Shown here: positions 15,801 to 52,789 of the stretch, piece after piece
How the letters are laid out: each line of letters opens with the position of its first letter
Numbering within the stretch: position 1 is the stretch's first letter
From: Stictocephala bisonia
Taxonomy: Eukaryota; Arthropoda; Insecta; Hemiptera; Membracidae
DNA length: 64,000 bases
Direction of reading: 5' to 3'
Assembly (NCBI GenBank): GCA_035578905.1
Contig: JAQJVL010000423.1
Coordinates: 496,001 to 560,000, forward strand
Position numbers and translations under genes: made by a program
Notes under the pieces: model-generated
Database searches by the model: none
The model's input: only the letters and a program-made list of their open reading frames with translations
What the model was told of the DNA's origin: nothing

Positions 15801-16393
15801 AGATGAATTGTGTTTTTTTTGTAGTAATTGTTACTAACAATGTATAAAGATTAGTCGAAATATATCTCTAATTGCCACTTTGGCATTTGCTGCAGCCATT
15901 AGAGAGCAACCTCTATTTTTTTCTCATCTGTGGTGGTTCTGAAAGGAACGTTTTTTTCAGTTTCTTCATAATGTTCTTACTTAGATAAAGAGTAAAAAAT
16001 TCTTAGATAAATTTAGTGATGAGTAGACAGTATTTCTAGGTACATACAGTATATTTTTTAAGCTTAATTAAATTTACAGAAGACTATGGTTGTTTTGTTG
16101 GTTTTCTGCGTGAGAGACAGAAGAACCCTGGATGACAAAAACATCGAGGTTTTTGTTTATTAAAGATAAAGGACTGGATTGAAACTGTTTCTTTGTTTTC
16201 ATATCTTATCGCACCATAGGATATACTTGTAATTACGTGGCAGTTTAGTTAAATAATTTCAACAGTTATGTTAAACTGTCCAGTCCCAAATATATTTATT
16301 TATTCTATAAGTTATAAATTATAATTGTTCAGCAAAAAGTTGTAATTTTAAATTAAACTACACAATTAAACTAAACTAATAAGAACAATTTTT

Positions 16394-17080
16394 TAATCAA
16401 ATCAATTTCTTTATTGTCACAAATACATTTTCAAGTCTAGCACAGCTAGAAAAACAGGTGACATTGTCAGATCTAGAAACTAGGCCTACTCTAAAATTAA
16501 AGCAAAGTAATTTATTAGAAATTACTTAGTCAAACACAAAATGCACAAAATGCTGCTTTAAATGAAATTGTCATTTAAGTATTCGTCAACAGAATAATAT
16601 GCTTTGATAAGTAAAAATGATTTTATTTGTTTTTTAAACTTAGAAATTTCATCATTGTTCTTGTAAATATTTGGTAATTTATTGAACAATTTCATACCCA
16701 TATAATGGGGTGTTTTCTCAAAAAGACTAAGCCGATGTTTGGGATATTGGAAGTCACTCTTAAATCTGGTATGGTAACTGTGGTGATGTTGATTCTTAGT
16801 TAAACATTTTAAGTTAGTCTTCACATACACCAAAACTCTGTAAATATACAAACAAGGCAGAGTGAGTATTCCTATATCTTTAAAAAGAGGTCTGCATGAT
16901 GTTCGTGGAGGTGAAAAAGTCATTATTCTGAGATATTTTTTTTGAATTTTAAAAATTGCAAAGGCTTCAGACGCCACTCCCCAAAACTCAATATCATACT
17001 GAATAACTGAATGAAATAATGCGTAATAAACCATAATTTTAGTTTTGAAATCAACTACTTCTCGAATGACAAGCATTTGA
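16394..17080 (-). mobile_element. 3' part of LINE 'C-A', split by a nested LINE
   Basis: Minus-strand C-terminal reverse-transcriptase region (open frame 17076-16558) with MVYYALFHSVIQYDIEFWG, SCRPLFKDIGILTLP, KHRLSLFEKTPHYMGMKLFN and a final SVDEYLND. It ends in a short 3' UTR and a TGTGACAATAAA tail with ATTTG-like repeats at about 16394-16415. It is the direct continuation of the fragment at 21543-22362: the frames agree across a shared CATTTGA, and the intervening 4.46 kb is a later insertion. The family is a CR1/L2/jockey-like LINE. Confidence 0.88.
17074..17080. repeat. Target-site duplication of the nested LINE, left copy
   Basis: CATTTGA occurs here and at 21543-21549, exactly flanking the inserted LINE. 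Removing one copy with the insert restores an uninterrupted reading frame (VYQM|LVIRE) on the minus strand. Confidence 0.85.
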
Positions 17081-17102
17081 CGAAAATATCCCCAACTGGT
17101 AT

Positions 17103-18338
17103 ATGTTGCCAGATGAAGATGTTGATATTTGGCTGAAAAATAAAATAAAAGTTCCAGATATTGCTATTATTATAAGACCATCAATAAGCCACTTTATCAA
17201 AATGTGTGGAGACAATGAATTGATAAATGAAATGTGTAGCAGTCTAAATCTTAGTGATTATAAATACATAATTATGCCTGTTAATGGCCGAACTAATGAA
17301 GACAAAGCAGCAGATACTCATTGGTCTTTACTAATCTATAGTAGTAAGGAGGAGCGGTTTTACCACTGGGACTCCATGGGCGATCTCAATCTTCAACATG
17401 CAGGACGGATGGCAGCCAGTGTCACAGGGTTCCTTAAATCTCATCGAAGAAGAAGCTCGGATGACAGCGGTGTTTGTGGCAGTGGAGATGAAGGTGAAAA
17501 CATCAACCTGACTAGTGTCAAGTGTCGGCATCAGGTGTCTGGTGTGGAGTGTGGTGTACACATGCTACACAACATGGAGCTTGCATGTTCCTTGATACAC
17601 AACAACACACACATACATGACAATAGCTTCTATACAAAGCATTTCTCAGTAAGCGGAATCTTCGAACAAATATCAGCGTTTAAAAAAGCTCAAACACATA
17701 ACCTAACACCACTTCAATCCCAGCACACATTACGGAAAACTATTCAGCGACCTTCACTGCAAGCACGTGAAAAAACCACTGACTCGAAATTCAAATGGCT
17801 CAACCCACACTTCAAAACATCAGCTCTGAAAACGGCAGTCCATACTCTGGTAATAGGCGATTCCATGGTGAGACACGTCCGACCGACCGGCTGTAGAGTA
17901 CTGGCTTTCCCAGGCATTCACATCAACCAGCTTAGATCCAGAATTAAGGGAATGGGTGATAAGGAAAAGAGTGACATTGAAACAGTTATCTTGCATGTTG
18001 GGACTAATGACCTACATCGAACATCTTCACCCGATGACATAATGGGAGAAATTTGTAACTTGATAAGGGACACAAGGGACAGCTTTCCTAGAGTTAATAT
18101 AGTTGTAAATAGCATTGTACATAGGAGAGATAAGAGTAGGAGCTATGTAACTAGAACTAACCGTAATATAAGGTGGGTTTGTTCTAGGTATGGGGCTGTT
18201 TATAGTGAATTGAATAAGTATTTAGACGATAGCTGTCTGGCCAGAGATGGTCTTCATTTGAACAGAAAAGGGGTGAACGTTTTTCAAAAAAACCTATTAG
18301 TAGTATCACAAATTTGCCATAAAGAGGGAAACTATTAG
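17103..18338 (+). CDS. LINE ORF1 protein: Ulp1/SENP8-like protease fused to SGNH hydrolase
   Basis: 411 residues, open throughout. Residues about 1-165 resemble the C48 (Ulp1/SENP8-DEN1) cysteine peptidases: FIKMCGDNEL, then the catalytic His in DTHWSLLIY (H73), the catalytic Asp in FYHWDSMG (D90), a candidate oxyanion Gln at 144 and the nucleophile in GVECGVHML (C150). A low-complexity insert (114-135) separates D90 from C150. After a linker, residues about 245-400 form an SGNH/GDSL hydrolase: VIGDSMVRH (S254), G270, HVGTND (N302) and RDGLHLNRKG (D382, H385). The start is uncertain: the frame is open back to 17070 across the insertion boundary, and the usual N-terminal WLND-type box is only partly present, so the true N-terminus is probably lost. 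SGNH in CR1-like ORF1 is known; the protease fusion is the unusual part. Roles in the retrotransposon cycle are inference. Confidence 0.87.
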   Translation: MLPDEDVDIWLKNKIKVPDIAIIIRPSISHFIKMCGDNELINEMCSSLNLSDYKYIIMPVNGRTNEDKAADTHWSLLIYSSKEERFYHWDSMGDLNLQHAGRMAASVTGFLKSHRRRSSDDSGVCGSGDEGENINLTSVKCRHQVSGVECGVHMLHNMELACSLIHNNTHIHDNSFYTKHFSVSGIFEQISAFKKAQTHNLTPLQSQHTLRKTIQRPSLQAREKTTDSKFKWLNPHFKTSALKTAVHTLVIGDSMVRHVRPTGCRVLAFPGIHINQLRSRIKGMGDKEKSDIETVILHVGTNDLHRTSSPDDIMGEICNLIRDTRDSFPRVNIVVNSIVHRRDKSRSYVTRTNRNIRWVCSRYGAVYSELNKYLDDSCLARDGLHLNRKGVNVFQKNLLVVSQICHKEGNY

Positions 18339-18430
18339 CATTTCAGGATGATGTTCACAGTAAACCTTTAACAAATACTATAAACCCTCTTCCTTCTCCG
18401 TTTCCGGAAGGAGCCCCCCACGATTGGATC

Positions 18431-21342
18431 ATGCACTTTAACATTCAAGGAGTAAAACATAAAATTGATGAGTTACAAGTATATCTCACAGAATCAGTAG
18501 TTGGTAATAATGTCAAAGTAATATGCCTTAATGAGCATTGGTTAAACCATAATAACATTGATATTTTAAATAAAATTCCATATTTCAGAATGGTGGACTC
18601 ATATTGTAGAGCAAGAGAGGGGGCTAGAGGTGGTAGTTGTATTTTGTTGAAATGTGACATTGAAAATATTAAAGTAAGACATGATATAAAGCAGTTGGGC
18701 GAGGATCATATTTTTGAAATATCAGCTGTCGAAATACCTAATTTAAACACAATAGTAATTTCACTATACAGAGTCCCTTACACCAACACGTTAAAAGATT
18801 TTATATTAAAGTTCGAAAACCTTATAAATATTCTAAAAAAATGAAAATAAACGAAAAAATATCTTTTTGGCATCTGATTTTAATATAGATTTATTACATT
18901 ACAAAAATATAAATAGTATAGATTATGTTCACGAGGAAGGCAATCATGCAGGCGTACCTAGTTTTAAACATAATTTACATAGAGATTTTGTTAATATAGT
19001 TGAATATAATGGATATAATTTTAATTTTAACGAGCCAACTAGGGTATCTTCAACGACTTCGTCCTGCATAGATAATATAATTACAAACGCTTTTTTTGAT
19101 CAGTCATTTTATTTTACTCAAGAGCTCGGACTATCTGACCATAAGGCCCTTTTCATTTCGTTACCTTCAAAAAAAGACGAGCGAGTGGAGAATCACCAAG
19201 GAGTTAAAAAAAGAATTATCAATGATCACTCTTTTCAGACTTTTGATGTTTTACTGAAGAGTATAAAGTGGAATTTTAATGAGTTTACTTCGGTGGATGA
19301 GAACTACAACGCCTTTCTTTCATGTGGAGCTTTTTGGGAGGCATTCCCTTTGAAAGCAAGTAAGAATAAAACAAAATATATTAAATGGATAACTAAAGGG
19401 ATAATAGTGTCGAGTAATAAGAAACTATTACTCTACAATGAAGTTAAGAGATCTAAAGATAAACAAAAAGAGAACCATTACAAAAAGTACAGAAATATTT
19501 TCAAAAAATTTGTGAATCAAGCAAAAAGGTGGGCAAATGACAGCTACATAGAGAGGGCTGAAAACAAATCAAAAGCAAGTTGGGAGGTCATAAAACATGA
19601 ATTAGGATTGGCAAAAAAAATCGAATAAATCAGAGCATGTGTTGAGTAAAATATTTGAGAACTTAGGTGCAAATGTAAGTGAAGTGTTTAATTCTCACTT
19701 TATTAACGTTACTGAGAAACTTGCAGTCAGCCCCTCCATAAGTATTGCCATTGATAAAGTTATAAATTCACTTGAAACAGTAAATATGGCGACTGAGTTT
19801 GATTTTCAAAGAGTGACTCCTGCACAAGTTAGCAAAATTATTGACAAAGCAAAGCCCAAAAAGTCCTGTGGCTGGGATGAGATATCAATGTGGTTAGTAA
19901 AACGCTGTAAAAGTACTATATTAGACCCATTAACGAGAATAATTAATCAATCTCTGATAACGGGAAAATTCCCAGAAAAACTAAATTATGGTAATACTCT
20001 CTATTTAAGGGAGGTGAAGAGGTAGGTGATCTCTAACTTCAGACCAATATGCTTGCTGCCAACTTTGTCAAAAATCTTCGAATATGTGGTAAAAGAACAG
20101 TTAATAAAATACATTGAGATAAATGACATGTTTTCAGTAAGTCAGCATGGATTCAGAAGCAAAAGATCGACAAATAGTGCTTTGATCGACTTGACAAATG
20201 ATATCCTTAAATCATTGGACGATTCAAATGTTAGCCTTGGGATGATGTGTGACTTGTCTAAAGCCTTTGATTGTGTGAGGCATGATATTTTGCTAACAAA
20301 ACTCGAATGTTACGGAATCAAAGGACACTGTTTGAGATGGTTTGGTTCTTACCTCCAGAACAGAAAACAACGGACAACAGTAACACTGAATAATGTAAAA
20401 ATAAACTCAGAATGGAAAGCAGTCCCTCATGGTGTTCCACAGGGCTCTGTTCTCGGTCCTTTGCTCTTCTTGATATACATTAATGACCTCCCTTTCCTGT
20501 GCAAAGAAAAGATAGTGATGTACGCTGATGACACTACAGCACATGTAACCAGACAGACAATAAGTGAAGTGGAGCAAGCGATGAGTGATCTGATAGAGAT
20601 GTTAGATGAGTGGTTTGCAGTTAATGGGCTAAATTTAAATAAGGAAAAAACAAGCATAATACAGTTTAAAACTCAAACAGTAGTAAATGATGCAAACAAG
20701 TACGATGGGGCGATAGCAGAGACAGTGAAATTGCTTGGTCTAGTTTTTGACTCAACACTCAAATGGAAAGCGCACATAGAATAAATTACTTCGAGGCTGA
20801 ACAAGGCAATATTTAACATGTCATGTCTGACTCATATAGCGAGCAGGAGAATCAAGTTAGTGCTGTATTTTGCGTACTTTGAATCCATATTACGCTATGG
20901 AATAATTATGTGGGGACGTTCAAATCACTGGGAAAAAATATTTAGAGCCCAAAAGAAAATGATAAGAGTCATGATGGGTATGAACCCAAGAGAATCTTGC
21001 AGAAGAATATTTAAAGAACTTGGTATTCTTACATTCCCATGATTGTATTTGTTGGAAGTAGTAAAAAATGTACACGAAAATATATATTCTTACCAACAAA
21101 ATAATGTGAACCACGACCATAATACAAGAAGTAAAAATAAACTACGTGCCCCCAAACATAGATTAAGAAAATATGAAAATAGTCCATTATGTAGCGGAAT
21201 ACAAATTTATAATAAAATACCACAGAAATACAAAAGCTTGGGGAATGCCAATCAGCTCTATAGAAAGTTCAGGCAGTTTCTAGTTGACCGAAGCTATTAC
21301 TCCGTCTCCGAATTTCTGCAGGACGAGGTCGTTATATTTTAG
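18431..21342 (+). pseudogene. LINE B ORF2: endonuclease and reverse transcriptase, broken
   Basis: The endonuclease starts at 18431 (MHFNIQGVKHKI), has LNEHWL, and continues after a frameshift near the A-run at 18835 with SDFNIDLL (18870) and GLSDHKALF. A second frameshift at the A8 run near 19615 leads into a frame that stays constant from 19639 to 21342 but has three stops (20023 TAG, 20782 TAA, 21040 TGA). The RT motifs are intact: SNFRPICLLPTLSKIFE, SQHGFRSKRST, DLSKAFDCV, GVPQGSVLGPLLF and MYADDTTAH. The C-terminal LINE domain (NHDHNTRSKN, KYENSPLCSG) ends at 21342. Five lesions make this copy inactive as assembled, although both frameshifts are in homopolymers. Confidence 0.9.
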
Positions 21343-21542
21343 ATACACTGAAAAATAATTATTAAGTATGTTATTGTGCATAAATTATTGATTAGTTGGT
21401 GATTTAACCTCTTTATTTTGTTATTTCTTCTTTTTTAATTCTTTAGGTTAGTAGTTTTGTAACAATTGACTAGTCACCAGTTAGTAGCAGATTATCTGTT
21501 TAACACTAATGTAATTTTCTGTGACAATAAACCATTTCATTT

Positions 21543-22362
21543 CATTTGATACACTGAAGTATTAAGTCTTTTCCCAATCATGTTGATATGTGATCTCCAT
21601 GTTAAATTTTGATCTATTTTAATTCCTAAAAATTTTGTACTTTCAATAAAAAATATTTGTTCCCCGTCTAGTGAAATCTCGGGGTTAAAAACTTCTTTAT
21701 TTTGAAGGGTTGAAAACTTAATTAAATTGGTTTTTGAAATGTTTAATCCGAGGCCATTTGCTTGAAACCAGTTAGAAAGCTGAGAGAGAGATGAATTAAA
21801 AAGAGGTATTAGTTCCTCACTATGCTTAGCTTTGAGAATTGCAGTGGTGTCATCAGCATACAAAACTACATTAATTGAAACATTAGACGGAACATCGTTT
21901 ACATATATTAAGAATAACAGCGGCCCTAAAATAGATCCCTGGGGAACCCCACATTTAATTCCTTCCCATTTCGAGGTGAACTGTTGATTATTCTTTGATA
22001 TAATAGTTCTCTGATATCTGTTTGATAAATAGGACTGAATCCATAACAGTGCAGACCTAGAAAAATTATAAAATTTCAGTTTTTCTAATAGAATGTCATG
22101 TACGACACAGTCAAAAGCCTTGGATAAATCACAGAACACGGCAGCTGTGCTCTGCGATCCATCCAAGGCAGTCGAAACCTGATGAAAAAGCTCTGACATG
22201 GCTAAAACTGTACTTTTGCCTGGTCTGAAACCAAATTGCTCATTTACAAGTAAATTATTTTTCTCAAAAAAATTTAATATCTGATTAAAAGCAATTTTTT
22301 CAAATATCTTTGAGAAAGAAGGTAACACATACGGGGCGATAATTGTCAGGACCTTTTCCCCC
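21543..22362 (-). mobile_element. LINE 'C-A', reverse transcriptase part, up to assembly gap
   Basis: The minus-strand frame is open from the gap to the insertion point. It shows PSFSKIFEKIAFNQIL, NEQFGFRPGKSTV, CDLSKAFDCVVHDILL, GVPQGSILGPLLF, VLYADDTTAIL and KFLGIKIDQNLTW. It stops abruptly at SVYQM, where LINE B is inserted, and resumes at 17076. The upstream part of the element falls in the run of N. No stop or frameshift is seen in the visible part. Confidence 0.9.
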
Positions 22363-31294: not shown

Positions 31295-31717
31295 ATGGTT
31301 ATTGAAACATTCGATATTGATGGTGTGGCAGTACCTCACCATGTCATAAAGATCACTGGGGACGGGGCTTGCCTTTTCTCCTCTTTATCTTATCTGGTCC
31401 ACTGTACAGCTTCACTAACACTCCGAGTGCGCGCTGACATTGTGCGTCACGTGTCCAACAACTGGCGCAGACTTAAGCCTTACACCTTGACCATAAATAA
31501 AGTCCCTTACAGAACTAAACGTCAGTACATCGCCGACATTTCACAGCCTTACTTCTATGGAACCTTTTGTGAGCTCATGGTTGCAGCAGAGGTCTTTCCT
31601 TATAAGTTCGAGCTCTTTCGTGACAGAAAACTCTTAACCTGTTATGGGGATGAGGTTCAGGAAATAACCTGTTGCAGTCCAACCAGGCTCTTCTCAGCCC
31701 ATCCTATCAAACCTTGA
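31295..31717 (+). CDS. OTU-like cysteine protease domain protein of the Helitron
   Basis: 140 residues. The OTU nucleophile motif is GDGACLFSSLSYLV (D-G-x-C), followed by LRVRADIVRHV, YIADISQPYFYGTFCELMVAAEVF and FELF. This is the core order of OTU domains found in Helitron proteins (established association). The C-terminal His strand of the OTU fold is not visible: the frame ends in SAHPIKP, so it may be truncated or continue in another frame. It lies 13 bp upstream of the Rep/helicase start in a different frame, which would suit a separate or frameshift-linked product. Function in the element is unknown; deubiquitination is inference from the fold. Confidence 0.75.
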   Translation: MVIETFDIDGVAVPHHVIKITGDGACLFSSLSYLVHCTASLTLRVRADIVRHVSNNWRRLKPYTLTINKVPYRTKRQYIADISQPYFYGTFCELMVAAEVFPYKFELFRDRKLLTCYGDEVQEITCCSPTRLFSAHPIKP

Positions 31718-31730
31718 AACTCCCTTAGAC

Positions 31731-34700
31731 ATGAGTTCGGACGAATCAATCGTAACAGTGATCACACCTCAAAAATCTAGAGGTAGAAAACGAAGGAAAA
31801 GATTCACTGATTCCATCTGAAAAAAGCAGGTTAGGGAGTCTGTTGCTAAAAATACGGAGAGCCACCCTGAAATGCATAGAAAGGCTGTTAAAAAATATGC
31901 CGAGAGCCACCCTGAAGTGCACAGGGGGGCTGTTCAAAAATATGCCGAGAGCCACCCAGAAGTAAACAGAAGGGCTGTTCAAAAATATGCCGAGCGCCAC
32001 CCAGAAGTAAACAGAAGGGCTGTTAAAAAATATACCGAGAACAACCCCGAGATTAACAGAAACTCTGTAAAGAAGTACTCAAAAAACCATCCTGAAGTTA
32101 ATCGTGAGGCTACGTCAAAGTACAATGAGAGGCGTGCACAAGTAAAGTTACTGCCATGGACAATCAAGAAACTCTCAGGTTTCAAGTATGACCCAAACAT
32201 TGAATATTCTACAGATAAAATAGTTCAACTTGGACCTCGAGAAAAGTGCAATTTCTGCCATGCTTTAAAATGGAAAGACGAAAGCCCCGGAATGTGTTGC
32301 AGTAATGGAAAAGTTCAACTGCTTCCCTTTCAAAAATATCCCGACCCCTTACATAGCCTTCTTTCTCACGACCATCCTGAGGCTGAGCATTTTCTTAATA
32401 ATATTCGCAAATACAACAGTTGTTTCCAAATGACGTCGTTTGGAGCAAAAGAGATAAAAGGAGACCATTTCATGCCAACATATAAGGTGCAAGGCCAGGT
32501 TTATCATAGAATAGGGAGTCTAATGTCTCGAACACAACAGCAGCAGTCTTTCCTTCAGATATATTTTGTTGGTGATGATAACCGTGAAAGAGACATTCGC
32601 TGTGGGTACTTTCAAGATGTCAAGCCAGCATTGGTAGGCCAGCTCCAAAAAATTCTTCATGAACATAACAAATATATCAAAGAGTTCAAAGCTGCTATTG
32701 ATTCTGTTCCCAAAGATCAGCAAGATTTCCAGGTAGTTATCACTGCTGACCAGAAGCCTTCGAGTGCTCACAAGGGACGTTACAATACTCCTACCACTAA
32801 CAAAGTTGCTGTCTTCATTGTAGGCCAGGTGTTTGAAAAGCGAGACATTGTGCTATACAGTAGGGAAGACAAACTGATAAGAATCAGTGAGCTACATCGA
32901 GCGTATGATTCTCTTCAGTATCCTCTCATGTTCTGCCGTGGTGAAGATGGCTATTGTATCAACATCCCTCAGCGTGACCCAAACACCAAGACAGCACTTA
33001 AGAAAACTGTGTCTGCAGCTGATTTCTACGGATATAATTCAATGGAACGAGAAGGCAAAGAACCATATTTACTTTTGTTTTGCAACCTCCTCAACCAATT
33101 TTTGGTTGATATGTACGCAAAAATTGAAACAGAACGGCTAAACTTCATTCGAAACAACCAAAAAAAGTTGAGGAGTGAAGACTACATTCACTTGAAGGAT
33201 GCCATGAGAAAAGCTGATGCTCAGGTATCGGAGCTGGGTAAGATGGTTGTACTGCCATCAAGCTTCACTGGAGGACCTCGCTACATGCATGAGCGTACTC
33301 AGGATGCCATGACCTATGTCCGCCATTTTGGTCGTCCAGATCTCTTTATAACTTTTACGTGCAACCCAAAATGGCGAGAGATATGTGAACTACTCAAGGA
33401 AGGTCAGAAGGCTCAGCACAGACATGACTTGGTAGCGCGGGTTTTCTACTTAAAAGTGAAGCATTTGATGAAACTAACGAAAGGGTCTATATTTGGAGCA
33501 TGTAGATGTCACATGTTCTCCATAGAATGGCAAAAAAGAGGCCTTCCTCATGTACACATTCTCCTTTGGCTAGAAGAAAAGATTAAACCAGACATGATTG
33601 ACAAAGTTATTTGTGCAGAGATACCTGACCCAGAGCTAGACCCTGCCCTCCATGAGATTGTGAAGTCAACTATGATCCACGACCCATGTGGTGCTCTCAA
33701 CAGAAATTCGCCCTGTATGGTTAATGGAGCTTGCAGCAAAAAGTATCCCCGTCCTCTACTAAGAGAAACACAGACTGGGGAAGACGGTTATCCTAAATAC
33801 CGTAGGCGTTCTCTTTCAGATGGTGGATTTGTTGTTGACATCAACGGGGTAAAGCTTGACAATCAATGGGTGGTACCTTTTAACCCTGTCCTGTCTCGCA
33901 CCTTTTCAGCGCATATCAACGTCGAGTACTGCAACTCTGTCAAGTCTATAAAATATATTTGCAAATACGTCAACAAAGGGTCCGATCAAGCAGCTTTTAC
34001 AGTTGAAAATGAACTTGACGAGGTGACAAGGTACCAGACAGGACGCTACATTAGTACTTCTGAAGCTGTCTGGCGAATTCTCTGCTTCCCAATACACGAT
34101 CACCATCCACCAGTCATGCATATTGCAGTTCATCTTGAAAAAGGCCAAAGAGTTTATTTTAACGAAGAAAATGTGATGGAAAGGCTAAACAACCCGCCAA
34201 AAACTACTCTTTTGGGCTTCTTCGATCTGTGCAAAACCGATGCGTTTGCAAGAACCCTCCTTTACTCTGAAGTTCCGTCATATTTCGTATGGAAAAAGAA
34301 TACCTTTTGTAGAAGAAAGCAAGGGAAATCAGTACCAGGCTATCCCGGGGTGAAAAAAGATCAGGTTTTAGGCAGGGTATATACTGTTCACCCTAATAAC
34401 TCTGAGTGCTATTTTCTACGCCTTCTCCTACACGAAGTTAAAGGGCCTACGTCATTTGAATATCTTAGGAACGTAAATGGAGTGGTCCACCAAACGTTTC
34501 AGTCTGCATGTACAGCTCTTGGTTTGCTCGAAGACGACACTCACTGGGATCGAACACTAGAAGAAGCTTCACTCTCAGACTCCCCGTCCAAGATCCGCGA
34601 ACTACTTGCCACCATGTTGGTGTTTTGCCAAGTAAGTAGTCCTCTCACATTATGGGAAAAACACCGCGACAGTTTGGCGGACGACGTAAAGAGGTCGATG

Positions 34701-36298
34701 GAGACAGAGTTTGGGGATGTGCAACAGCGTATGGACATTGTGTACAACAAATGTTTGGCTTTACTCGAAGATTTGGTGTATTCAATGTCTGGCAACCGTC
34801 TCCAAAACTATGGTCTTCCTACACCACTTCGCGAGCAAGAGTCCATCACTAACAACCTGGAACGCCTCAGAGAAATTTCTTTCGATGTAGTCCAGCTCTG
34901 TGAAATGGTTGCTGTAAATGTTCCAAAGCTGAACGAAGAACAACTGAATATTTACAAAGAAATTACCTGCAGTATTATTTCAGAATCTGGGCAACTCTTT
35001 TTCCTGGACGCTCCTGGTGGTACCGGAAAAACATTTTTGATCAATTTGTTGTTAGCAAAAATAAGGAGTGAGAAAAAGATTGCCATCGCAGTTGCATCCT
35101 CTGGCATTGCTGCGACACTGCTTGATGGTGGGAAGACGGCTCATTCAGGTTTCAAGTTGCCTCTCAACCTGAACCACTCAGAAACACCTATTTGCAACAT
35201 ATCAAGACAAAGCAATATGGGCCAGGTACTCAAAGAAACAGTATTAATTGTTTGGGACGAGTGTACCATGGCCCACAAAGGAGGTATAGAGGCTCTGGAC
35301 AGGACACTTCAAGACATCAGGAACTGCAAACGTCTAATGGGCGGAGTAACAGTTCTGCTGGCTGGAGACTTCAGGCAAACCTTGCCCGTGATACCTCGAG
35401 GAACTCGGGCTGATGAGGTGAAAGCGTGCCTTAAGTCATCCTTCTTATGGCCAAAAATTAAAATCCTGTCTTTGAGAGTTAACATGAAAGTTCATTTGAA
35501 TAGAGATTTGAAAGCAGAAGAATTTTCTACATTAGTTTTACAAATAGGTGATGGTAAACTGCTAGAAGATCATGAAGGTAAATGTGCAATACCTCAAAAT
35601 CTTTGTCATACTGTTAGTGATATGAATACACTGCTTGACAAGATATATCCTAACTTAAATGACAATGTGAACAATAGTCCAACATGGTTGCAAGAGAGGG
35701 CGATTCTTACCCCAACTAACGACTCTGCAAATATAATAAACCTTTCGTTGTTAGAAAAATTGCCTTCTGCTGTTGTGAGGTATGAATCTGTGGACTCAGT
35801 GGTTGAGACAGAAGACGCTGTTCACTATCCAGCGGAGTTTCTCCACACTCTGAACCCCCCTGGAATTCCACCTCATGTTCTTTCTCTAAAAGTCGGTGCT
35901 CCAATAATGCTACTCCGCAACCTAAACCCTCCCAAACTCTGTAACGGTACCAGGCTGCAGGTGAAAACTCTGCATAAACATGTTATTGAAGCGACAATAT
36001 TTACAGGCGTTGGTCAAGGAGAAACTGTTTTTATTCCCGAATTCCTCTTATTCCCTCAGACTACCATTTTGCATTCAAACGTCTGCAGTTCCCTGTAAAA
36101 TTATGCTATGCCATGACTATTAACAAGGCACAAGGGCAAAGTTTGAAGATGGCTGGGGTAGATCTGAGCAATGACTGTTTCTCCCATGGCCAGTTATACG
36201 TAGCATGTTCTAGAGTAAGCTCATCTGACAGTCTGGTCGTCCTTCAGCCAGAAAAAAGGACTAAAAATGTTGTTTACAAAGAGGTGCTAAGCACTTAA
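31731..36298 (+). CDS. Helitron Rep/PIF1-type helicase, two lesions
   Basis: The probable start is ATG 31731 (MSSDESIVTVITPQKSRGRK). A TGA at 31818 splits off this head, and the long frame then runs 31872-36098 (1408 residues). Near 36060-36068 a frameshift moves the tail (FKRLQFPVKL, MTINKAQGQSLK, YVACSRVSS) to another frame ending at 36298. Domains numbered from 31872: six 15-residue N-terminal repeats (1-85), a Cys-rich CNFCHAL segment (about 125), a Helitron-like N domain (about 190-560), the HUH motif in LPHVHILLW (His about 560, 562), Rep Tyr region KYICKYVNKG (about 695-705), and helicase Walker A DAPGGTGKT (1046-1054), Walker B IVWDECTMAH and GDFRQTLPVI. The enzyme would nick and replicate the element by rolling circle. 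Two single lesions are the only visible damage. Confidence 0.92.
31857..32126 (+). repeat. 45-bp coding repeats in the Rep N-terminus, 6 copies
   Basis: Six 45-bp units encoding variants of ESHPEVNRRAVQKYA. The first four are nearly identical and the last two (ENNPEINRNSVKKYS, KNHPEVNREATSKYN) are diverged. The repeats are basic and rich in His/Tyr/Lys, and would form a repetitive helical N-terminal extension ahead of the Rep domain. Confidence 0.88.
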
Positions 36299-36386
36299 GA
36301 AAACAACAACAACATCAATTTTGGCTGTCCGTATATATCTATCAGACTAAAATGTACTAAAATATATTTAAGTACTTGCATATATT

Positions 36387-36839
36387 AAACTACCTGGTGG
36401 GACTGTTCCGGCAGAGGATAGGGTGACTGCCTTACCAAATAAAACTACCCGGTGAGACTGTTCCGGCAGAGGCTAGGGTGACTGCCTTACCAAATAAAAC
36501 TACCCGGTGAGACTGTTCCGGCAGAGGCTAGGGTGACTGCCTGACCAAATAAAACTACCCGGTGGGATTGATTCGGCAGAGGCTAGGGTGACTGCCTTAC
36601 CAAATAAAACTACCTGGTGAGACTGTTCCGGCAGAGGCTAGGGTGACTGCCTTACCAAATAAAACTAGCCGGTGGGATTGATTCGGCAGAGGCTAGGGTG
36701 ACTGCCTTACCAAATAAAACTACCCGGTGTGATTGATTCGGCAGAGGCTAGGGTGACTGCATTAACAAATAAAACTACCCGGTGTGATTGATTCGGCAGA
36801 GGCTAGGGTGACTGCCTTACCAAATAAAACTACCCGGTG
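36387..36839 (+). repeat. 55-bp minisatellite near the Helitron 3' end
   Basis: Eight consecutive 55-bp units starting at 36387, 36442, 36497, 36552, 36607, 36662, 36717 and 36772, plus a 13-bp partial. Core: CCGGTGNGANTGNTTCGGCA, then GAGGCTAGGGTGACTGCCTT and ACCAAATAAAACTA. Units come in two subtypes (GACTGTTCCGG and GATTGATTCGG) that alternate irregularly, suggesting higher-order duplication. No spacers, so it is not CRISPR-like. Confidence 0.95.
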
Positions 36840-37111
36840 TTTTTAATTAAATGTTATATCTATATTTTTTTTTTTTTTTTTGGAAATAAGTTGTAAATAT
36901 GGTCTCTACCTGCCGGCCTCCCCGTTGCGAGACTGGATACGCCAGACTCATTTTCTCAATTTTAATTCTGGTAAACCAACGGGCAGATGTACTCGAGTTA
37001 CTAACAATTAATTATTTCGTTCCTCGGCGAAAATACACAACCCGTACATAGGTCCTAATGTAAGTGTTCCTTAATCATAATCCGTAGCGAAGCACGGGTA
37101 CTTTCTGCTAG

Positions 37112-40722: not shown

Positions 40723-40736
40723 AAATCTACGCTTTA
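40723..40736. repeat. Penelope target-site duplication, left copy
   Basis: AAATCTACGCTTTA here and at 42042-42055, flanking the Penelope insertion exactly. A 14-bp duplication is within the variable range seen for Penelope-like elements. Confidence 0.9.
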
Positions 40737-42041
40737 GAGAGATAGGACATCAGCAAACTTACCTTAAAAGACAAGTTCACTAACATCAGAGTAGTAGTCA
40801 CAAACACAAAATACACAAAAGCTCACAAATTTTCAACACCACTGGCATTTTCTTCAGGTGAGTAGAGGGAGAGAGAGAGAGACACTGAAATGACTTCCAC
40901 TATTGCTGGGTAGGTGGCTGTGGTGGGGGGGTGTACATCCATAGAGCAACACTCAGGTGTAGATGCAGTATTTCAGTTAGTATATATATATAAAAATATA
41001 AATGAAGTTTGCTGATGGGGAAGGGGTTGAAGGGAAGTGGTCTATCTTATGTTCAGATTAGGTGGGTCACGGGATTTTGTTATCCATTGGTGTGCTAATT
41101 CCATCCTTCGGAGTTGGGAACTATTGGCATGGGAAGGAAGGGATCTGATTACCTTAGTGGTGTAACACTGATCAAAATTTTGATTATGGAGAAGAGTATG
41201 GGCAGAGACAGGTTTTTCAGGATTTTGGACTTTGCAATCATGTCTATGGCCATTCATGCGTTATTTACCAACCTCTACCAATCCTTGTAACAAGAAATCT
41301 TGCAAAACCTGCCCTATTCATCTCTCAGCCACATCTTTTACCAGCTCCACTACCTCCTTAACCTACAAGATACCTGGAAACCACTCCTGTGATTCCACCA
41401 ATCTAATTTATCAACTCCAGTGCCAGCACTGTCCTGCCCAATATATTGGCCTTACCAGTGAAACCCTTCGTAAACGCATGAATGGCCATAGACATGATTG
41501 CAAAGTCCAAAATCCTGAAAAACCTGTCTCTGCCCATACTCTTCTCCATAATCAAAATTTTGATCAGTGTTACACCACTAAGGTAATCAGATCCCTTCCT
41601 TCCCATGCCAATAGTTCCCAACTCCGAAGGATGGAATTAGCACACCAATGGATAACAAAATCCCGTGACCCACCTAATCTGAACATAAGATAGACCACTT
41701 CCCTTCAACCCCTTCCCCATCAGCAAACTTCATTTATATTTTTATATATATATACTAACTGAAATACTGCATCTACACCTGAGTGTTGCTCTATGGATGT
41801 ACACCCCCCCACCACAGCCACCTACCCAGCAATAGTGGAAGTCATTTCAGTGTCTCTCTCTCTCTCCCTCTACTCACCTGAAGAAAATGCCAGTGGTGTT
41901 GAAAATTTGTGAGCTTTTGTGTATTTTGTGTTTGTGACTACTACTCTGATGTTAGTGAACTTGTCTTTTAAGGTAAGTTTGCTGATGTCCTATCTCTCTT
42001 AATATACTAATTCCTGGCCTAGTGCCCTTTAACCTAACCTA
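40737..42041 (+). mobile_element. 5'-truncated Penelope-like element with inverted arms
   Basis: A 1305-bp insertion bounded by 14-bp duplications. The left arm (40737-41262) is an exact or near-exact inverse of the right arm (41473-41998), 526 bp each, separated by a 210-bp unique segment that begins the coding part. The right arm contains the end of the GIY-YIG gene and 3' UTR; a 43-bp tail (41999-42041) follows. Inverted terminal pieces joined to a truncated copy are typical of Penelope elements (established). The reverse transcriptase is absent. Confidence 0.92.
41259..41693 (+). pseudogene. Penelope GIY-YIG endonuclease fragment
   Basis: About 144 residues, open to the natural stop. A Cys-rich linker (NPCNKKSCKTCPIH; CQHC) precedes the GIY-YIG nuclease core: STNLIYQLQCQHCPAQYIGL with its downstream ETLRKRMNGHRHD. 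This is the layout of the Penelope C-terminal endonuclease, with the linker Zn-finger in front. The reverse transcriptase that should precede it was lost by 5' truncation at about 41263, where the inverted arm begins. The C-terminal half (MNGHRHD onward) is encoded again, inverted, at 41257-41042. Confidence 0.88.
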
Positions 42042-46914: not shown

Positions 46915-48824
46915 TTACTCAGCGTCAGATTCCGATTCTGACTGTCTCTCAATAATAGGTGTCTCATCTACTGCACCTGGTTCGCTTGAGTCATCGATCA
47001 AACCGGTAAAGAACCCATGTTTGACTGGCGGGATGTAGGGTAACAAGTCAATCATGTCCCTTTTCTTCGCTGCAGTCACTGGTCGCTGCCCAGGATACAA
47101 GAGCTCTAACGGGATAAGACCAAGGTGGTCCACTCTCCTTCCTTTCCTTGCAAGAGTAACGTCAATAGCAAAGAACTCAATGTCGTCATTCAGAGTTTCC
47201 TTGTAGAAGATTTTGTATGGTTCTTCTTTCAAGTATCGAAGCCATTGTATCTTGTGCCAAGATACTGGATGACCCAGAGTGTTTTTTCTTCTTCTTGAGA
47301 TTGCTTTTTCCAGCTTTTCCGTACAATAAATGTCCTCTCTCCCCATAACTTTAAGTACATAGGGCTTCTTTCGTTTTGATTTTATGATTGCATCATACCA
47401 ATCTTGGGGCACATTCATTATTCTCCCTTTTGAATACGTCTCGATCACTCCAAAATCCGCATCATTGGGTAAAAAAGAATGTCCACTAGTCATGAACTTT
47501 TGATCAATTACCTTAACACTTCTCCCTTCCTCTTGAAGAAACTTCATGCACATCAATGCCACTTTTATGTTACGGTTTTGTCCTCCGCAACTATCACTGA
47601 ACATAATTACATGGTCGATATTTTCTTGTACTTTGTTACGAAGGTGCTCAACCAAACAAGATGCAATTTCTTGTGATCCACGGGAGGCTACCGTTTCGTC
47701 CCAAGCATACATGTACGCTGAGTCACTGGACAACTCGTGACATCCAACGTTATAAACGTACATGTTTCGCTTATAGTATGCAACAGAGCACGTTAGAGTA
47801 GGGAATGCAAGAGCTTTTTGAAGATCAAAAGTTAAAGCATACACCTTTGAGGCATCTTTTTTGCTGTCTTCTTTAGCTTGATTCAATTTTTCTCTTGCAA
47901 GTTCCGCCTTACGTAAATGCAACTCCTTACTAGTTTCAAGCTCTCGTTTTTTTTGTGGGTCCTCACAACCAGCAATTTTCATTTTGAAAGCGTCACATTT
48001 TGCGCAAGTGTCTTTATGAGGTGCATGAAAGTGTAGATTGTATTCATGATTAAAAATATAACGATACTTTGATTCAGAAACAGGAACTGCGTTGATGTTG
48101 TCACAGTGTTCTTTGTATAGATTAAACAATGACCTAATATTTAAGAACTCTGACAGGTACTTTCTGTCAGGGTTGTGAGCCCTTGTGTAGTGTGACTGGT
48201 ATGCTGGAAAGCTTTCAATATGATTTCTTACTATTTGTAACCGTGCATCATCAATTTTGTTTGCTGCCGGCTGCATTCCTCTCTTATCACTTCCAGGTTC
48301 ACAACCATCTCGTACTTTCTTCAAAGCTCTGAAACATCTTCCGTCAGAAACTTGAAAAGTCTTTAAGAAATATTGTTTGCACACCTTAAGATTTTTATCT
48401 GGTAACTGCAAGTGATAACCTATAGTAGAGCTTTTCACACCTCTACTTCCGTCTCTTACTCGGTGTGATTTTGGTGCACATTGTTTGCATAGCCCACAAA
48501 TGTATGCATTTTGTATTTGAAAACTTCCCATACTATAAAAGTGATCAAATAGTTTCTTTCTTTGTTCCTCAGTAATATTGTCACTGCACTTCATTTTGCA
48601 GCTACACGGTGGATTAGAGAATACTTTCTCAGCAACACGTTTACCCTTACCAGTTACGTAGGCCTTACCACTATTCCGTTTACTTTTACGTTGTTCTTTT
48701 TTGTTTGGATTCCGTTTCCTTTTTCGTGTTCTTACAACCAAAGGCCCTCCATTCCCATCGTCATTCATTTCATCTAAGTTCTCATTAATCAATTCTTCGA
48801 CATTTGCTGCCTCAAATCCATTAT
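46915..48824 (-). CDS. Putative transposase, exon 2 (main)
   Basis: The main exon of a 663-residue protein, joined to exon 1 at 49184-49265 by a 359-bp GT-AG intron (acceptor TTGATTACAG at 48826-48825). After an acidic start it has a basic nuclear-targeting-like stretch (RKRKRNPNKKEQRKSKRN) and cysteine groups (NPPCSCKMKCSDN; CGLCKQC; DTCAKCDAF) that suggest zinc binding. An RNase H-like core follows with candidate catalytic acids in LTFDLQKAL (D about 361), FSDSCGGQNRN (D about 438) and LPNDADFGVIE (D about 482/484). The SDSCGGQN box is, as I recall, the hallmark of the DUF7869 family, widespread in insect genomes and annotated as uncharacterised. A transposase role is inferred from its place between TIRs. 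No stop or frameshift is present. Confidence 0.82.
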
Positions 48825-49183
48825 CTGTAATCAAACACAATTTTTAACCAGGCCTATGGGCCAGTTGAATATTGGAAACATTGTAATACATTTTTATTAG
48901 TTTACAGCTAGGAAATCAAAGAAAATATTGTAATAAAGTAATCCAATCGCACAGCCAGCAGTTGAATGTAAAAATCCTGAAGGGCTCGTTTGATTGGTTT
49001 GAGCCTAGCCTAGGCCTTGATGTGTGTTCATTAAAAATATGAATGTTTTCCCTTCTAATATAAATTGGGAAACTAACCAAACTTTATTGTAACATACACA
49101 ATAAATTGTATATTATATGCTTGCAATTAGCAATAAAGACAAAAAGAACTATAAACACAATTTTAGGTTATGTCTACTCTTAC

Positions 49184-50288: not shown

Positions 50289-52789
50289 CCTTCCGGGACG
50301 AGCGCCCGTTTATGGCACACGAGGACGCGCGTGTTGTACTTTGTACAACATAAGTGTTTTTGGGCTTTCATTCTGAAATAATTATAAATAATACTGTAAC
50401 TGACCTTTATATGTATACATTATTATTATTTTAAGTTGATTTGTTACTAATACAATAATTTATAGAGTTATAAATAAATAAAAATGTATTATTACATATC
50501 AATTTATTAGTAACTAAATTAAACAATAATAATAAGAATTATAATTAAAGTAAAACAATATCAATAAAAAATTGTCGTCACATACAAAATGAGGAGTTTT
50601 TTAATATTTTTTTAAGTCTGTAGCTTTTCTTTTCCTTTACTCGTCACTGTTATCATCACTCCTACCTTGATTGCAGTGTTTACAGATGAGTTTCTTCTCG
50701 GAGTGGGTTTTACAAACAAATCGTGCACATGTGTCACATTTAATTGTTGTAGATGAGTTTTTTTTTTCTACCACACATCCAGCATGTTCCCTTCTTTCTG
50801 GCATGCCGTTCGGCAACTTCCTCTTCTATATCAGCGGTTCTGTATCTTGCCAAAAAGGTAGTAATGTCAACAGGGAGTGACCTAATAGTAGCTCTCATCT
50901 CCAAATGTTCCTTCATCAAACTCATTGCCAAACGTTTTTGGAAATCTTTTCTTCTGCATGGTTCTTAGTTTTTATTAAAATTTAAAATTACTCTTGCATT
51001 GATGCTAGCAATATTCATAAAAGCGAAAAAAAGGGCTAGAGGCCATCGTCTCTTCTCCCTGGATGCGGAGTAGGCTGCACACATTTTGTCGCAAGTATCC
51101 ACGCCACCCTTGGTCTGGTTGTAGTCAATAATTATATCAGGTTTACCTGTTTCATTATCAATCACTTTTGTGTGGTGCATTGTAGACAATAATACAACAC
51201 CTTTGTTTTTTTTAGTCACATAAGAAACTAGTGTTTTATCATCTTGAAATCCGTACATTGAAGTGCCCACATCTTTAGCCTTATTGGGCAAAAATGAAGG
51301 AGGTATAGCAGCCTTATTTTTTTTTTTTTTAAAGTTCCAATTAGTGTTAACCTTTTACTCAGTAGGTAATCAGCTAGTGGGACGCTTGTATACCAATTGT
51401 TGGTAGTTACATTTCTATTGGTATTCTCAATGGGTTTTACAAGTCGTTTGACGACATCTCTAGCACTGTTTGAGGTTTCGTAAGGGCCCTGTGGTTGTTT
51501 TCCACAATACACCTCAAAGTTGTGACAATAAAACGTTTTGGCGTCGCAAAGAGCAAACATTTTCAAGCCGTACTTGGCCGGTTTGTTAGGTATATACTGG
51601 ACAAATGAACACCTACCTCTGAAACGATGCAGCATCTCATCTATTGTTACAAATTCAGATGTACTATAATTATCAATGTAGTTTTTTACAAACAAATCAA
51701 CAACAGATCTAATGGGAGCTAGTTTGTCAAATTACTTGCGGTCATCTCTTGTGGTTTTATCGTCAAACCTCATACAATTTAGTAAAAATAAAAAACGTTT
51801 GTAACTCATAGCTGCTCGTATAATTGGTATTCCTGTCCCATCCTTAGCCCATAGTTCTCTAACGTTTGCATGACCACTCTTTCTAGTACCAATCAGATAC
51901 AAAACTCCAAATAATGCCATAATCTCAGGTCTGTTAGACTGTAAGCAATCTCGTTCCCTAGCAAATTTATGTGAGATAGTAAGTATATGTTTATTAGTAC
52001 AATCTAAAATTTCATCTATCATTTCAAGACTTATCATAGATAAAAATGCATCAATCTCATTACTCATATTCCTCGCACGTGGTTTTGGTCCTGGAAGTTT
52101 TTTCACAATGTTTGTTCTTCTTGTTTTGCTAGAAGGAAGAATGTCGGATAAACACCATATTGTCTCACCATCTTTACCCAGAACAAACTCGGCATCATCA
52201 CAGATTTCTAAGTCACTTTCATCATTTACCTCAAGTTCACTGTCATCCGAAATATGATTATGTTCAATTTGTTCAACAGTACATTCTGTCATAAACCCAT
52301 CTATATCATCATCTTCAGAACTATTTTGCAGAATATGATCAATTTCACTCGTTCTCAGTACATCACACATAGTAATGGCAATTCCTAACAGTATATACAG
52401 AATAAAAACAAAATAAACAAAGTTAACACTATTTAAATGCAACAAAATAACTATATATACAACACTAATATACAAAATAGTAATATAACAATAAAATAAA
52501 ACACACAAAACTATTATTTACGCAGTTTGAACAATGTTAACTACACTAATAAGACACTACTCAAGGATGCGCGCGTTGGACAAAGTACAACAACTCTGAC
52601 GCAACTGAACTAAATTCCACCTGACAAAGGCGACCTTGACCAGAACAATATGCGAGGCAGTAACGGAGTAGGGGAGTGAGGTGCCTAGGAATAGATCGCA
52701 GTTACCAGCATTCCAGGTAAAAATTAAACCGGTAAATATAAAAATACGACTACTGTTGTACTTTGTACAAGGGCGCGCGTCCCGGAAGG
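50289..52789 (-). mobile_element. piggyBac element, nearly full length
   Basis: Flanked by TTAA at 50285-50288 and 52790-52793. TIRs are CCTTCCGGGACGAGCGCCC (left) and CCTTCCGGGACGCGCGCCC (inverse of right), 18 of 19 identical. A TTGTACTTTGTACAA motif occurs close to both ends, in the same orientation. Length 2501 bp. It carries one transposase gene on the minus strand, in sense with the host DENND5 gene. Confidence 0.93.
50637..52370 (-). pseudogene. piggyBac transposase, inactivated
   Basis: Start ATG 52370 (MCDVLRTSEIDHILQ); the longer upstream frame is hydrophobic non-homologous sequence. An acidic N-terminus leads to the DDE core: VTIDEMLHRFRGRCSF (first Asp), NVTTNNWYTSVPLADYL, and NQTKGGVDTCDKM (third Asp). 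The C-terminal Cys-rich domain (CWMCGRKK, CDTCARFVCKTH, CKHC) ends at 50637. Family members have DNW where this copy has NNW (51399-51401), so the second catalytic Asp appears changed to Asn. There are also in-frame stops at 51732 and 50965 and frameshifts in the long A/T runs near 51320 and 50760. The copy is dead. Confidence 0.9.

Follow-up and report, generated by a model that had tools for sequence, protein, structure and literature searches.

A LINE ORF1 of Stictocephala bisonia that joins a SENP8-like cysteine protease domain to an SGNH esterase domain, and its modular relatives in the same genome

What the ORF1 protein of a LINE does beyond the packaging of RNA is an old question. The ORF1 domains tabulated for 448 elements of the Jockey superfamily are PHD, RRM, CCHC, Tnp22, coiled-coil, zf/lz and esterase, the last of these being confined to two vertebrate groups within that survey (PMC4120745); its ORF1 domain table has no protease, macrodomain, FLYWCH or PWWP, and its main text nowhere uses the words protease, peptidase or SUMO. 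ORF1-type esterases have also been reported from many animal phyla, in CR1, RTEX and Penelope-like elements, and that of the zebrafish element ZfL2-1 is active and binds anionic lipids, its role being unsolved (PMC3905857); GDSL ORFs are found in the LTR elements of bdelloids as well (PMC5408684). The other partner considered here likewise has precedents in mobile DNA, namely an N-terminal Ulp1-like protease in the NeSL and Utopia-1_TSP LINEs (PMC4640811), a Ulp1 domain in the Ginger1 and Mutator DNA transposons and an OTU domain in Helitrons (PMC2836005).

Here, we analyze a window of 64,000 nucleotides from the membracid Stictocephala bisonia, within which a first-pass annotation had drawn attention to a plus-strand ORF of 411 codons (17103–18338) as a LINE ORF1 that fuses a Ulp1/SENP8-like (C48) protease to an SGNH hydrolase. 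It held this not to be a standard ORF1 layout, and indeed the combination is absent from the domain table of the 448-element survey (PMC4120745). The family to which the window copy belongs resembles the Type IV esterase ORF1s of CR1/L2 elements such as ZfL2-1 in its C-terminal SGNH domain and in the EN and RT of its ORF2, but in the published Type IV proteins, as those sources present them, a coiled coil or zf/lz stands before the esterase, whereas the window family adds a FLYWCH-like module and C48 (PMC3905857; PMC4120745). Like NeSL and Utopia, it belongs to the non-LTR retrotransposons and encodes a Ulp1-like cysteine protease; however, Utopia is described as having one protein and a restriction-like endonuclease, whereas our family has two ORFs, an AP endonuclease and a SENP8-like protease (PMC4640811). 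The word esterase is absent from the NeSL/Utopia paper (PMC4640811), and Pfam places an AP endonuclease upstream of the RT in the second ORF of our family and no other nuclease there. Ginger1, Mutator and the Helitrons are further mobile elements with proteases of ubiquitin-like modifiers, once in the company of a PHD, but they are DNA transposons, and the Ginger1 protease is reported at the C-terminus of the transposase, unlike that of a LINE ORF1 (PMC2836005).

Both domains of the 411-residue frame are significant in Pfam and in sequence searches of the PDB. Peptidase_C48 (PF02902) matches residues 49–167 (E = 3.7e-9) and Lipase_GDSL_2 (PF13472) residues 267–390 (E = 3.1e-9), each above its curated cut-off; among solved structures, SENP8 matches residues 21–112 (2.6e-10), and the best match of the SGNH part is 4c1b, the "ORF1-encoded protein" of ZfL2-1 (residues 246–398, 4.1e-9). 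From these matches and the residues we place the C48 domain at 17097–17687 (plus strand; codons H73 at 17319, D90 at 17370, Q144 at 17532 and C150 at 17550) and the SGNH domain at 17838–18335 (plus strand; S254 at 17862, G271 at 17913, N302 at 18006, D382 at 18246 and H385 at 18255), the gap between the two matches (17688–17837, plus strand) being a linker. The residues singled out in the first-pass annotation, H73/D90/C150 and S254/N302/D382/H385, are all present, and to them can be added Q144, the oxyanion Gln six positions before the Cys, as well as G271 and H298; the SGNH domain hence retains S, G, N, D and H together with the transposon-typical His four residues before the Asn. The stop-free run of 411 codons compares with a mean of 144 and a maximum of 228 for the longest such runs in 300 first-order Markov sequences of 64 kb. 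Single-sequence structure predictions gave mean pLDDT values of 34.8 and 36.4.

The 411-residue frame had been taken for ORF1 itself; ORF1 is 717 residues long, and the frame corresponds to its C-terminal 57%. The ATG at 17103 is not the true start and the copy is 5'-truncated inside ORF1, because the frame stays open as far as the left edge of the insertion at 17080 (ENIPNWYMLPDED...). The ORF1 part runs from 17082 to 18338 (plus strand) with the ATG internal to it, the first stop upstream in the same frame is a TGA at 17067, within the target LINE, and full-length copies have 306 residues N-terminal of the Met encoded at 17103. The C48 domain of the window copy lacks its N-terminal strand. 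The insertion, whose limits (17080–21548, plus strand) were set by the restored target frame and by matches to other copies, has lost about 1.54 kb of its 5' part and contains the C-terminal part of ORF1 with C48 and SGNH, an ORF2 with AP endonuclease and RT (18323–21342, plus strand) whose open frame overlaps the end of ORF1, and a CATTT tail; copies about 97–98.6% identical match it over its length. On either side lie the parts of a second LINE on the minus strand, the 3' half of its RT ORF at 16558–17079 and the upstream part of that ORF at 21549–22362, where it reaches a 500-N gap. Joining 16380–17079 to 21549–22362 yields one open minus-strand RT frame (..LNTSVYQ-MLVIREVVD..), and CATTTG is present both to the left (17074–17079, plus strand; 7 bp, CATTTGA, if 17080 is counted) and to the right (21543–21548), where it merges with the (CATTT)n tail and leaves the exact length of the duplication ambiguous; 17080–21548 is therefore one insertion in another LINE. 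Twin priming, considered as the source of the head-to-head minus-strand RT fragment at 16558–17076, was rejected, because this fragment is one of the two halves of the target LINE.

A search of the 1.68-Gb assembly with the 411-residue protein gave at least 126 matches. These counts are lower bounds: at least 11 of the matches, the window included, span all 411 residues at 95–100% identity, 10 of these 11 have no internal stop, and four lie in an open frame of 741 codons. Twelve copies were fetched (L009–L020). L009 and six others share a 5' point to within 3 bp and that of L020 lies some 7 bp beyond it; the matches of L017 and L019 start only at points downstream of it, and the 5'-end stretch compared among the 12 was unmatched in L011 and L014. 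Measured from the common 5' end to the tail, L015 has 6013 bp. The full ORF1 comprises 717 residues from the first plausible Met (MSFILEV) and the intact ORF2 1007; ORF1 is whole, without gap or stop, in four of the 12 copies (L009, L010, L012 and L013), ORF2 in three (L009, L012 and L014, with L011 open over the 957 codons available at its locus), and both are intact in two (L009 and L012). Over 4.3 kb, L009 and the window copy share 98.6% identity. This family, which we call A, displays a target duplication (short, of ambiguous length, and not clear in L015 and L018), variable 5' truncation, a common 3' end and EN and RT in an ORF2 downstream of ORF1, all of them properties of a LINE; the ORF1 esterase and the layout of ORF2 make it a candidate CR1/L2/Jockey-like element of the AP-endonuclease type. 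In the 741-codon frame of L009, read from stop to stop, Pfam detects FLYWCH at 33–86 (E = 0.005, below cut-off), C48 at 379–497 (above cut-off) and GDSL at 597–720 (30.5 bits, the cut-off being 32.9), so that ORF1 looks to be ordered as an N-terminal DNA- or chromatin-binding module (FLYWCH-like), a stretch that appears coiled-coil-like by eye, C48 and SGNH. In the 5' flank of L013 (oriented 2142–2171), directly upstream of the LINE, some 30 bases from its very 5' end occur a second time in tandem.

The first-pass annotation had proposed searching for the fusion elsewhere, and it was found again, both in the other copies of family A, where the two halves again occur together, and in other families of the genome, with an EN/RT ORF2 downstream. 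Eight further loci from the protein search were chosen for long frames or for matches to both halves and not at random; in seven of the eight a single frame contains C48 as well as SGNH-like sequence. The eighth is L027 (2423–4657), whose ORF1 combines a PHD-like domain (E = 0.005, below cut-off) with a type-1 SGNH domain (see below), has no C48 and is followed by EN-RT. When the genome was searched with PF02902, the 150 places scored all passed the cut-off, and 51 of them have frames of at least 650 residues. Eleven of these 51 were fetched, again picked and not random and with L041 and L042 repeating families H and J, and C48 is followed by SGNH-like sequence in one frame in all 11; L039 has a degenerate SGNH domain (E = 1e-9) in which neither the Ser nor the Asn motif was found. 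In total, 14 families were sorted (A, B, C, D, F, H, I, J, K, M, N, O, P and Q), with C48 identities of 19–65%. EN and/or RT is located downstream of ORF1 in 11 of the 12 families for which this was examined (A, B, C, D, F, H, I, J, K, N and O), and in the twelfth, family M, a weak EN-like start (E = 0.076) is present where the locus ends. Two loci of a different nature were met in passing. In L029 (775–2190) and L030 (769–2190) a C48 ORF of 472–474 residues without SGNH directly adjoins a gypsy-type integrase, which probably marks a Ginger-like or LTR-type element with a Ulp1 protease of its own; 25 places scoring like these two, which are the ones examined, top the PF02902 search. L025 (2757–6131) has a frame of 1125 residues that may have been fused by an insertion: its first ~640 residues are unlike the other ORF1s (weak AEP_C962R, E = 0.024) and lead into the macro-C48-SGNH part known from family D.

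The C48 domain passes the Pfam cut-off in families A, B, C, F, H to K and M to Q and falls just below it in D, and in L025 when taken alone. The SGNH domains are of two types. Type 1 (A, F and G) has the complete S-G-N-D-H set, and type 2 (B, C, D, H to O and Q) has the Ser, Asn and His without the aspartate of DxxH; the motifs are kept in 13 of the 14 families. For B to D, H to K and M the SGNH label was assigned by the Ser/Asn/His motifs, by alignment and by the match of a type-2 profile to solved GDSL enzymes, because type-2 domains lie below the Pfam cut-offs or, in C, D, I, M and N, are not listed at all. The best matches of this profile among solved GDSL/PAF-AH enzymes reach 2.8e-5 (4c1b, 0.008), and a local SGNH profile built without N, O, P and Q found these four independently (1e-43, 1e-35, 1e-9 and 4e-33, respectively). 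Family G has no C48, and an esterase ORF1 can therefore do without it.

Around the C48-SGNH core the architecture varies: FLYWCH-C48-SGNH in family A, FLYWCH-macro-C48-SGNH in B, C and D, PWWP-C48-SGNH in F, I, M and N, PWWP-C48-SGNH-macro in H, C48-SGNH-macro with no recognised N-terminal domain in J, Q and P (SGNH being damaged in P, and Q being cut by the edge of its locus), and C48-SGNH in K and O. PWWP is above the cut-off in F, H, M and N and just below it in I (1.1e-4), and FLYWCH is above it only in D (5.4e-9, N-terminal) and below it in A, B and C. The macrodomain is present in 7 of the 14 families, before C48 in B, C and D and after SGNH in H, J, P and Q; the ORF1s that bear it are at L022 (2236–4617), L026 (2262–4613), L028 (2105–4594), L031 (950–3889), L034 (1179–3713), L039 and L040. 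Pfam has no macrodomain match in these ORF1s; in the PDB the family D domain as a single sequence finds human TARG1/OARD1 at 7.1e-10, and a profile of five families finds it at 1.7e-14. The five families aligned (B, C, D, H and J) share invariant Thr-Lys and Gly-Cys-x-Arg-Asp motifs, which contain residues that we take to be the equivalents of TARG1 K84 and D125. SENP8/DEN1, a NEDD8 protease, and TARG1/OARD1 are thus the best solved relatives of the C48 domain and the macrodomain, but they are free-standing cellular enzymes, unlike these fused ORF1 domains.

The N-terminal readers, the macrodomain of the relatives and the Ulp1-like proteases already known in NeSL/Utopia LINEs had all been passed over by the first-pass annotation. 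Among the open-licence PMC entries listed, no title or abstract opening names a C48-SGNH or macrodomain ORF1, and scans of viral contigs and prokaryote genome contigs, which detect close relatives only, and of plasmids and phages gave no relative. Hence, the C48-SGNH ORF1 appears to be what is new here, esterase ORF1s and LINE Ulp1-like proteases being known already, and the macrodomain-bearing relatives are the boldest part.

It seems to us probable that the window holds a native ORF1 fusion in a 5'-truncated LINE, with a C48-SGNH core common to several families, and that its domains act as proposed below. The C48 domain is SENP8-like both in profile and in its His-Asp-Gln-Cys: its profile recovers SENP8 at 4.1e-28, two bacterial effectors at 1.9e-12 and Ulp1 at 2e-5. 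It could be imagined that such an enzyme serves in maturation, cutting the ORF1 (or ORF1-ORF2) product and not acting on host modifiers, since CE-clan proteases with polyprotein-processing roles exist (PMC10318531). These ORF1s are multi-domain proteins with long linkers and variable domain order, and in 11 of the 14 families Gly-Gly sites are more numerous than the mean of shuffled sequences (adenain-like sites in 12 of 14). Nonetheless, we judge this unlikely, because the nearest solved relative is SENP8 and no viral maturation protease; the sole viral-type match, Peptidase_C5 in family I, is weak (E = 0.049). Placed by hand against domain spans and alignments, the 28 Gly-Gly sites in the 14 chains lie inside domains (20), in terminal tails (6) or between domains (2, one each in D and I); they take up no shared linker position, and the domain-internal ones are mostly GG before THW or TN.

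The residues themselves bear on whether C48 is an enzyme at all. Its His, Asp, Gln and Cys (H379, D396, Q450 and C456 in the full ORF1, corresponding to H73, D90, Q144 and C150 of the window frame) are invariant in all 14 families, down to 19% identity, and are common to SENP8 and the ten families aligned with it. Against this invariance, a modifier-binding or scaffold module kept for something other than catalysis appears quite unlikely, although altered enzymes do occur in these ORF1s, as the loss of one triad residue from the type-2 SGNH domains shows, and within-family dN/dS for C48 is 0.62–0.72 in three of five comparisons. Among families B, C and D, dN is 0.25–0.39 for C48, 0.21–0.31 for the macrodomain and 0.25–0.32 for SGNH, and dS is saturated and not computable in 8 of 9 comparisons, the ninth giving 2.16; this low dN against a saturated dS therefore indicates purifying selection over long times. 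The comparison of copies within family A that the first-pass annotation had suggested gave a more mixed answer, with pooled dN/dS of 0.35 for SGNH and 0.62 for C48 (36 pairs each) and 0.38 for the N-terminal part (15 pairs); recent constraint on the C48 of family A is weak by this measure. Four other within-family C48 pairs, with 2–15 codon differences each, gave 0.28, 0.25, 0.70 (H/H2) and 0.72 (J/J2), and such within-family values are weak evidence because young copies mostly carry neutral changes.

The intact ORF1 of the window copy had also seemed remarkable beside an ORF2 with five lesions. The lesions were confirmed (frameshifts near 18840, 19615 and 20015, and stops TAA 20782 and TGA 21040), but at their density 2.2 would be expected in ORF1, where none is seen (P = 0.12), and all five would land in ORF2 with P = 0.17; the contrast was hence rejected as a sign of selection. 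The same intact frame beside a broken ORF2 is what would speak for domestication of ORF1 as a host gene, a very improbable explanation that we rejected for a copy that has no start, no 5'UTR and none of the 306 N-terminal residues, sits within another LINE and has a lesion-free ORF1 at P~0.12. LINE chimeras are known, and from the window by itself one could not have told whether template switching had joined a host SENP8 transcript to an ordinary esterase LINE in this one copy, but full-length copies and other families have the same C48-SGNH join, and we rejected this chance origin as extremely improbable.

A native fusion of recurring modules is also what the phylogenies describe. In trees with several poorly supported inner nodes, two splits have a support of 100: that of C48 sets families A, B, C and D apart from the rest, and that of SGNH sets apart A, F and G. 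These splits are incompatible on a single tree, and modules have therefore been exchanged. The FLYWCH region of family A is 75% identical to that of C, 68% to that of B and 37% to that of D; its SGNH domain is 37–39% identical to those of F and G and 19–21% to those of B, C and D, and its ORF2 is 28–32% identical to those of B, C, D, F and G. The ORF1 of the window family thus arose either through an exchange whose junction lies between C48 and SGNH or through domain-wise acquisition. Such module exchange shows ORF1 evolving in the manner of a viral accessory polyprotein.

The activities of the domains and the purpose of their fusion we infer from their relatives. In the native ORF1 that we favor, the FLYWCH or PWWP module may bring the ORF1-ORF2-RNA particle to DNA or chromatin, and C48 would strip a ubiquitin-like modifier in trans (NEDD8 or SUMO; the sequence does not tell which), its substrates being host factors or proteins of the element itself. 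The esterase, whose role the authors of its structure did not settle (PMC3905857), might supply a lipid or acyl activity by analogy with that shown for ZfL2-1, and the macrodomain, where present, could take ADP-ribose off proteins. Together, the domains look like a kit that would erase host marks limiting the element. It is possible, and we suggest it tentatively, that these proteins represent an undescribed class of ORF1 in which a shuffled reader (FLYWCH or PWWP) accompanies up to three mark erasers, a NEDD8/SUMO protease, an SGNH esterase and an ADP-ribosyl hydrolase, which would strip host restriction marks at the target site or from the element's own particle, much as the macrodomains and deubiquitinases of viruses do. 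The esterase, the conserved isopeptidase and the frequent TARG1-like macrodomain indicate which host marks may matter, NEDD8/SUMO and ADP-ribose, and their role becomes testable through changes of catalytic residues in reporter assays.

The window has several other features of mobile DNA and repeats. On the plus strand, a Helitron ORF of 1408 residues (Helitron_like_N and PIF1; 31872–36098) is preceded by an ORF for an OTU-like cysteine protease (31295–31717, plus strand; E = 8.7e-4, just below cut-off) and followed immediately by a tandem array with a period of ~55 bp (36384–36848). Further along, a 530-bp inverted repeat whose arms are 99.8% identical (40733–41262 and 41473–42002) flanks 210 bp and is adjoined by an ORF with a near-cut-off GIY-YIG match (41232–41693). 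The minus strand carries an ORF of 641 residues with a weak DUF7869 match (46915–48840, E = 7.6e-4) and two pieces of a piggyBac-type transposase (DDE_Tnp_1_7; 51228–52508).
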